Shown piece after piece: positions 46,738 to 48,337 of a stretch of DNA of 64,000 nucleotides (position 1 is its first letter; every line of letters begins with the position of its first letter). The position numbers were made by a program, and so were the translations under genes. The DNA is from Alphaproteobacteria bacterium (GTDB lineage Bacteria; Pseudomonadota; Alphaproteobacteria; Micavibrionales; Micavibrionaceae): contig WGMJ01000018.1 in assembly GCA_016125135.1 (NCBI GenBank), positions 186,001 to 250,000 of the forward strand. The letters are read 5' to 3'. A model generated the notes under the pieces. That model was not told the origin of the DNA, did not search any database, and worked only from the letters and a program-made list of their open reading frames with translations.

Positions 46738-47223
46738 TTAAATCTCATCCTCATCATCCAGACTGGCGAGGCCGGAGAAGGATGACTGGCTGGCAAGGAA
46801 GCGTTCGAGCTGGCGCATCACACTAATAATATCGTGCAAAGTTTTGTCGTTTACTTCTGTTGATTTCAGTTTTTCTTCATGCTTGCTGAACATGTCGGTG
46901 ATCATTTTGTGGAGCTTCTTGCCCTTCTCGGTCAGCTTCACGCGGAACGAGCGTTTATCATGCACTGAGCGCTGTTGCTCGATATAGCCTGTTTCCACCA
47001 TCTTTTTCACGTTGTAGGAAACGTTTGAACCAAGGTAGTAACCACGCAGCGTTAACTCGCCCACTGTCAGTTCGTCATGGCCAATATTGTGCAAAATCAT
47101 CGCTTGCACGTTGTTGATGTCAAGAATGTGATGCTTATCAAGTTCAGCTTTCACCACGTCAAGAAAATAGCGGTGCAGGCGTTCAAACATATGAATCGCA
47201 TCGTAATAAGGCGTTGTATGCAC
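46738..47223 (-). CDS. ldtR: LdtR-type MarR family transcriptional regulator
   Basis: 161 residues with a GTG start nine bases after TGGAG. YYDAIHMFERLHRYFLDVVK, LGSNVSYNVKKMVETGYIEQQRSVHDKRSFRVKLTEKG with the winged helix, and a long C-terminal helix match LdtR of alphaproteobacteria. In Liberibacter and Sinorhizobium it controls an L,D-transpeptidase gene and stress responses. No such target is next door. The acidic tail (LASLDDEDEI) is usual. A dyad upstream may be its own operator. Confidence 0.88.
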   Translation of the reverse strand: MHTTPYYDAIHMFERLHRYFLDVVKAELDKHHILDINNVQAMILHNIGHDELTVGELTLRGYYLGSNVSYNVKKMVETGYIEQQRSVHDKRSFRVKLTEKGKKLHKMITDMFSKHEEKLKSTEVNDKTLHDIISVMRQLERFLASQSSFSGLASLDDEDEI

Positions 47224-47265
47224 GGGCGTTACTCCAGATTTTTATTATTATTTAGATAGTTTTGA

Positions 47266-47282
47266 GATAGATTCTTTCTATC
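47266..47282. promoter_or_regulatory. Candidate operator upstream of ldtR
   Basis: GATAGA, five bases, TCTATC is a perfect dyad in the ldtR leader, 43 bp before its start. A MarR-type dimer would fit this size and many LdtR-like genes control themselves, but binding is only inferred. Confidence 0.4.
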
Positions 47283-47323
47283 CTTATGATAATAAAGGTT
47301 TTTCCTGAAGCAAAGCTTAATTT

Positions 47324-47598
47324 AGGGCCTTCCTTTGCCTATTTCGTCAAATTCTGTTCACCCTAGTATAGCCAGATGGCAGGAAAAGCCACGCAGCACT
47401 AGCCTGCGCCTAATGCGAGTGGCTTTGACGAACCAGATGGCTATACTAGGGTGAACCCAATAGGGCGCGGCAAATTTACATGGGCTGATCGTTCAAATGG
47501 CTTGTTATTAGGGCAAGGCTAGCAACTGCGCCATTTTCACTTCCATCCATGTAAATTTGTCTCGCGCAGAATTGATGAAATAGGCAAAGGAAGGCCCT
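47324..47598. ncRNA. 275-bp three-branched inverted-repeat element (structured RNA or foldback element)
   Basis: An outer pair of arms (47324-47345 and 47577-47598, 22 bp perfect, continuing imperfectly inward) encloses two large hairpins. Hairpin A has 19-bp perfect arms (47356-47374 and 47438-47456) and an inner stem AAAGCCAC/GTGGCTTT. Hairpin B pairs CAAATTTACATGG (47471-47483) with CCATGTAAATTTG (47547-47559), extended by GCGCG/CGCGC, with an inner AAATGGC/GCCATTT. The whole folds as a three-way junction on either strand. It fills most of the 385-bp space between ldtR and trmN6, and its right arm covers the AAGGAAGG ribosome-site-like bases before trmN6. I see no second copy in the window. 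Confidence 0.6.
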
Positions 47599-47608
47599 GG
47601 TTGACGTA

Positions 47609-48337
47609 ATGCCAGAAGAGATACATGTTTTAGACAAAAAAGTGCGGCTTTTACAGCCCGATACAGGGTTTCGCACGGGATTAGACAGCGTGATGCTGGC
47701 TGCTGCCTGCCCTGCTGCTGATTTTGAAACTGTGCTCGATATAGGTTGCGGTGTTGGCGGCGCGGCGTTCAGCTTGCTTTACCGCGAAAGGCAGATAAAG
47801 CTTACCGGTGTTGACCTGCAACCCGTGATGATTGAACTGGCGCAAGAAAACGCAAAGCTGAACAAGCTTGAAGCGCAATGTAATTTTATTCAAAGCGATA
47901 TACGCAATTTTACCGCGCCGCTTTTTGACCACGTGATCTGCAACCCGCCCTACCTTGAAGCCGCTACACATGTGCCCTCACCCGATGCCGGCCTTGCCAT
48001 GGCGCGCGGCCACCAAAGCGAAGATATTTCACTGGAAGACTGGGTGAAAGCTGCGCACAGGCTTGTGAAATCAAACGGGTCATTCACGCTTATTCACCGC
48101 GCTGACCAGCTTGACCGCATAATCCACGCGCTTGGAAAAATGTTTGGCAAAACAGATATTATTCCGCTCTGGCCTAAAGCGGGCGAACCAGCCAACCGCG
48201 TGATTGTAAGAACATGGAAAGATAAACGCTCGCCAATTACATTATTGCCTGGCCTTATCAGGCATGAAGAAGATGGCAGCTATACGAAAGAGGCTCAGTT
48301 AATTCTGCGCGAAGGTAAAGCGTTTGTAACAGACTGA
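47609..48337 (+). CDS. trmN6: tRNA1(Val) (adenine(37)-N6)-methyltransferase-like protein
   Basis: 242 residues. VRLLQPDTGFRTGLDSVMLAAACP is the TrmN6/YfiC start; VLDIGCGVGGAAFSLLYRE is motif I, and HVICNPPYLEA is the NPPY motif of N6-adenine methyltransferases. GHQSEDISLEDWVKAAHRLVKSNGSF follows as in the family. It lies ten bases after the branched repeat element, which may fold over its ribosome site. Its end overlaps the convergent unknown gene by 43 bases. Confidence 0.88.
   Translation: MPEEIHVLDKKVRLLQPDTGFRTGLDSVMLAAACPAADFETVLDIGCGVGGAAFSLLYRERQIKLTGVDLQPVMIELAQENAKLNKLEAQCNFIQSDIRNFTAPLFDHVICNPPYLEAATHVPSPDAGLAMARGHQSEDISLEDWVKAAHRLVKSNGSFTLIHRADQLDRIIHALGKMFGKTDIIPLWPKAGEPANRVIVRTWKDKRSPITLLPGLIRHEEDGSYTKEAQLILREGKAFVTD

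Follow-up and report, generated by a model that had tools for sequence, protein, structure and literature searches.

A relic paired-hairpin element upstream of a trmN6-like gene, probably a non-autonomous IS5-family MITE, and its dispersed proteobacterial relatives

The closest described systems include the MITEs mobilised by insertion sequences (ISs) of the IS5 family (IS427, IS1031, and IS5 groups)—small, non-coding, multicopy, and patchily distributed elements that carry terminal inverted repeats, duplicate a TA or TNA (perhaps YTAR) target, and have ends similar to those of the corresponding ISs. The elements described here share all of these features. Unlike those MITEs, they have in common a conserved core, an inverted pair of hairpins, in copies whose ends resemble different IS5 groups, and in appearance this core is unlike what an internal deletion of a single IS would leave.

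Correia elements (NEMIS) of Neisseria are likewise palindromic, intergenic MITEs with long inverted ends; the Correia copy compared is 155 bp. A kinship suggested by eye was rejected, as R1, a covariance model of the right hairpin (P3) only, has no match in the gonococcal Correia copy (locus L353) with filters off. PLSDB files the chromosome-sized 2.17-Mb Neisseria gonorrhoeae records NZ_CP119140.1 and NZ_CP119142.1 as plasmids. REPINs and BIMEs (REP pairs with RAYTs) resemble the present family in carrying two homologous hairpins in inverted orientation, and differ in hairpin size (20–40-bp REPs versus ~100 nt here); the hairpins here are enclosed by terminal inverted repeats and accompanied by target duplications. 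ERIC, RUP, BOX, and the Rickettsia palindromic elements are, like this family, dispersed palindromic repeats of bacterial genomes; they differ from it in hosts and sizes.

Anatomy of the window copy

The element lies between a MarR-family regulator gene (ldtR) and a trmN6-like gene in a 64,000-nucleotide stretch of Micavibrionaceae DNA (the window). A preliminary description had placed a 275-bp branched inverted repeat at 47324–47598; the branching stands, and the exact ends are corrected here to GGG...CCC termini at 47325–47597, a true span of 273 bp (Table 1). The three-way fold has an MFE of −152.6 kcal/mol, whereas shuffled sequences average −81.5 (z = −14.8; 0 of 200 shuffles equally stable). 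Its outer arms (47324–47350/47572–47598) are 96% complementary across 27 nt, and the left and right hairpin stems are formed by 47351–47379/47433–47461 and 47465–47483/47547–47565, respectively. Pairing of AATTCT (47350–47355) with AGAATT (47568–47573) closes the three-way junction.

The element is two-fold symmetric: inverted repeats of 25–30 bp form the ends, followed by AATTCT/AGAATT at the junction and then by P2 and P3. Because R1, built from P3, matches P2 on the opposite strand, P2 is an inverted homologue of P3; R1 matches P2 in ~10 other copies as well. ORFs overlapping the 273 bp are short and without evident coding value. The right arm does carry the ribosome-site-like sequence next to trmN6 that had been noted earlier, and the element ends ~10 bp upstream of the trmN6-like start codon (ATG at 47609). 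No second copy was found in the window's own genome (G000), where the element is single-copy. The window copy is a relic, with one intact TA and no partner copies; the TG on its right is presumably a decayed TA.

Table 1. Features of the element and its neighbours, in window coordinates
Feature	Coordinates	Strand	Evidence or remark
Neighbour: MarR-family regulator ("ldtR")	46738–47223	−	Pfam MarR_2, 1.1e-13
Left target-site TA (putative)	47323–47324	.	Left-edge TA as in Micavibrio-type copies
Left terminal inverted repeat/outer stem P1, 5′ arm, with conserved AATTCT	47325–47355	+	Inverted repeat; covariation, 15 copies
Left hairpin P2, inverted homologue of P3	47356–47456	−	P3-only model R1 matches 47352–47465, minus strand, E = 1.2e-9
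Junction CCAATAGG, can form mini-hairpin	47457–47464	+	Fold; alignment A2 columns 135–144
Right hairpin P3, most conserved part	47465–47567	+	R1 match 47456–47571, 94.5 bits; relatives
Right terminal inverted repeat/outer stem P1, 3′ arm, with conserved AGAATT and trmN6-near AAGGAAGG	47568–47597	+	Inverted repeat; covariation
Right target-site TG	47598–47599	.	Sequence versus intact copies ending CCC/TA
Neighbour: TrmN6-like methyltransferase	47609–48337	+	Pfam MTS, 1.3e-16

A dispersed and mobile family

A search of 58 related genomes returned two weak matches, both folding as three-way junctions and both placed elsewhere than the window copy: the one in G020 separates flgC from fliE, and the one in G035 separates a gene for a PerM-like permease from an hdaA-like gene. 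With the G035 copy as query across the family, multicopy sets appeared in G104, G122, G102, G117, and others, and a pattern scan found hosts among Micavibrio-type Alphaproteobacteria and, unexpectedly, Nitrosomonas sp. Nm51. With a limited set of candidates scored in each genome, R1 relatives occur in at least 24 of 142 genomes of the order, at 1 to at least 24 copies per genome, and in at least 14 of a phylum-wide sample of 398 genomes; Nm51 has R1 matches in at least 8–9 places, and the complete genome G530 has about 25 copies. BLAST adds plasmid copies from Comamonas odontotermitis, Thalassospira marina, and Azotobacter chroococcum whose folds agree, the last scored weakly by R1 alone (E ~0.1). 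Phages and viral contigs gave no match.

The hosts span Alpha-, Beta-, and Gammaproteobacteria with a patchy distribution. Anatomy is constant across the family, with 25–30-bp terminal inverted repeats around two hairpins of which the left is the inverted homologue of the right, and numerous phylum-level copies fold with an identical plan. The family is apparently undescribed: it corresponds to no Rfam family and to no description in the open-access literature searched, and an earlier description elsewhere is possible.

The element is dispersed and the family mobile, inserting at TA or TNA targets in gaps between genes. Copies occupy unrelated loci; 63 of 65 lie outside long ORFs (by a simple ORF procedure), many of them starting exactly at a stop codon. 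G530 contains ~50 end sequences, mostly paired ~268 bp apart, with identical TNA flanks in 9 of the 12 copies read. TA flanks the copies of Micavibrio and Nitrosomonas, and TTAA or CTAA flanks two betaproteobacterial-type copies, a number too small for certainty; at the window copy the flanks are just TA and TG. Empty sites were found in congeners (G010 or G116) for the cysH/cysD, glmM, and fliO insertions, and a candidate fourth, the joined-flank match of L081 with G009, was discarded for its poor junction alignment. As ldtR and trmN6 are non-adjacent in all 29 relatives examined, no orthologous empty site is obtainable for the window locus.

The 273-bp window element is thus short, free of a transposase gene, and bounded by terminal inverted repeats, as bacterial MITEs are; multiple dispersed copies, target-site duplications, and empty sites are found in other members of the family, the window genome having one copy. 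A foldback or MITE-like element had been among the possibilities raised beforehand; it is supported by the scatter of copies over unrelated loci, by target duplications and empty sites, and by ends like those of IS5-family ISs. Many identical copies with target duplications were to have marked an ordinary MITE; the designation MITE holds and "ordinary" does not, the structure being conserved across the phylum.

Shortened, solo, and composite forms also occur. Solo ends (TAGGGTCARRAYYYAY) without a partner are present in L109–L137 (e.g., L109:1501 and L124:1501), ~15 of them, counted by position, in G102; the start of several coincides with the stop codon of a gene, and decayed or partial elements may therefore supply stop codons. 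G122 has two 184-bp derivatives without P3 (L357:189-372 and L358:157-340), with the same junction at different loci and ends that differ by mirrored substitutions. Other derivatives of 169–201 bp have lost most of one hairpin (L360:146-346 in G530, L361:175-343 in G020, and L359:119-302 in G104). The L093 copy has ~62 extra bases between both hairpins, apparently hairpin-forming themselves, and in G530 facing element ends 4.35 kb apart (L362:131-4481) could bound one larger composite element or belong to two relics independent of each other.

Candidate mobiliser of the element

The window feature is very probably a relic copy of a non-autonomous MITE moved in trans by an IS5-family (IS427-like) DDE transposase. 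The family of that transposase is inferred from the sequence of the ends, the target duplication, and the size of the ISs. IS427-group ISs measure 832–865 bp and mostly generate 2-bp repeats (PMC3281130), and the IS1031-group ISLrh has ends GAACCTGTCTAGTATCT and target TNA (PMC12016507). The ends and target duplications of the family fit these groups, TA being IS427-like and TNA IS1031-like.

IS5-type ISs with similar ends are present in Nitrosomonas and in another alphaproteobacterium. IS L278, an 836-bp element with a TA target and a DUF4096 transposase encoded in two ORFs, has ends GGGTCTGGACTC.. resembling those of Micavibrio-type elements (p about 0.001–0.005). IS L283 of Nm51, whose DUF4096 transposase reading frame is broken, has ends GATAGTGTCGYCAT.. 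that share up to 13 of 18 terminal bases with that genome's elements (p = 0.0001), and G530 ends GAACGTGTTTACGATCT agree with those of ISLrh at 13 of 17 bases. Ends and target duplication together match an autonomous IS in Nm51 (L283) and in the comparison with the published IS1031-group end; the window copy's own end is weakly similar to ISs (best 8/18, p = 0.03).

Several observations count against this assignment. Most copies are seen without a cognate IS: no DUF4096 (PF13340) transposase was found in the window genome G000, nor in the copy-rich G117, G122, G104, G102, and G530, so that in most hosts the IS link is one of similarity, not of co-residence. No IS-length pair of element ends was found in 7 genomes scanned or in the complete G530. 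Divergence among the ends exceeds what would be expected of a classical transposase site, and the window copy has one intact TA only. The P3-less 184-bp derivative is present twice in G122, by which P3 may be dispensable for mobility.

In the proposed mechanism, the transposase would cut and join the element ends (GGG...CCC, TA target) in trans, and the window genome would no longer encode it. The core of paired hairpins is unusually conserved, and its function is putative: the two inverted hairpins would work as cruciforms or as single-stranded DNA, probably at replication forks, and could there help expose or pair the element ends, and template switching between the arms would keep them matching. 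This role is the least certain step.

Complementarity of the arms and its interpretation

Both arms and both hairpins stay complementary while their sequence drifts. Across 15 full-length copies, pairing is retained in 96.6% of cells and falls to 33–44% when partners are slid. Covariation, a check on which had been proposed earlier for the arms, is present in these copies: both sides have changed in 60 of 93 base pairs, a level reached by 0 of 500 shuffles, a count that relatedness among the sequences keeps from being a probability. Between close copies the outer arms differ by mirrored changes, among them a mirrored 1-nt insertion (L103 versus L104) and the L357/L358 substitutions, as would be expected if one arm is copied from the other or if both ends are strictly constrained.

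A tentative reading would make the core of paired hairpins an ancient parasitic module that persists by taking on, from host to host, the ends of one IS5-family group or another, and that is kept as cruciform or single-stranded DNA whose shape would be read by a transposase or replication factor.

An unlikely alternative is that arm matching reflects a mutational process only—template switching in long palindromes—in a decaying palindromic MITE whose structure has no function. The mirrored arm changes would be expected of it, as would the lack of a G-U excess over A-C mismatches in P3; however, conservation across the phylum extends to unpaired residues and to the plan of inverted hairpins, and recent changes in P2 and P3 are mostly one-sided.

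Selection on RNA should favour G-U mismatches. Across 78 P3 hairpins, G-T and A-C mismatches are about equally frequent (107 versus 87 cells; 28 versus 30 columns). In P2, compared in the small 15-copy set only, G-T exceeds A-C (25 versus 5 cells), an excess probably due to few, related sequences; this hint of a G-U preference is not seen in the 78 P3 hairpins.

The mismatch pattern bears on the structured regulatory RNA or 5′-UTR switch suggested in the preliminary description, under which an RNA expressed from the element, either a leader switch or a small RNA, would act on trmN6 at this locus. The fold is very stable, covariation is strong, and transcription from a weak promoter-like site upstream (47262–47290) would place the fold, with AAGGAAGG in its right arm, in the trmN6 leader; yet that site is at chance level (1 found, 1.1 expected). 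Other copies adjoin unrelated genes without orientation bias (16 same-sense versus 11 antisense), so there is no consistent downstream gene in sense orientation as for a riboswitch; an initial impression of sense orientation in 5′ UTRs (3 of 3 copies) was dropped once 65 copies were examined. Rfam 15 gave no relevant family match at gathering or relaxed thresholds. With no G-U preference, no orientation bias, and no conserved ldtR–trmN6 adjacency, a conserved RNA switch is very improbable. Should transcription start at 47262–47290, the element could fold in the trmN6 leader, which would be a side effect of insertion.

Movement of a REPIN-like element as single-stranded hairpins by a Y1/HUH (RAYT) transposase is improbable, since its REPIN-like geometry of two homologous inverted hairpins is accompanied by TA/TNA duplications and long terminal inverted repeats that resemble IS5-family ISs.

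Interpretation as a relic MITE explains a striking structure easily filed as a riboswitch and brings to light an apparently unnamed repeat family of Alpha-, Beta-, and Gammaproteobacteria. Strong covariation normally suggests a functional RNA; its occurrence here in mobile DNA, without a G-U preference, is a warning for covariation-based RNA discovery. If the core is indeed an ancient module, it would define a MITE lineage by its structured core, not by its ends, and the combination of a conserved core with end groups that differ among hosts makes the role of DNA shape in DDE transposition testable.
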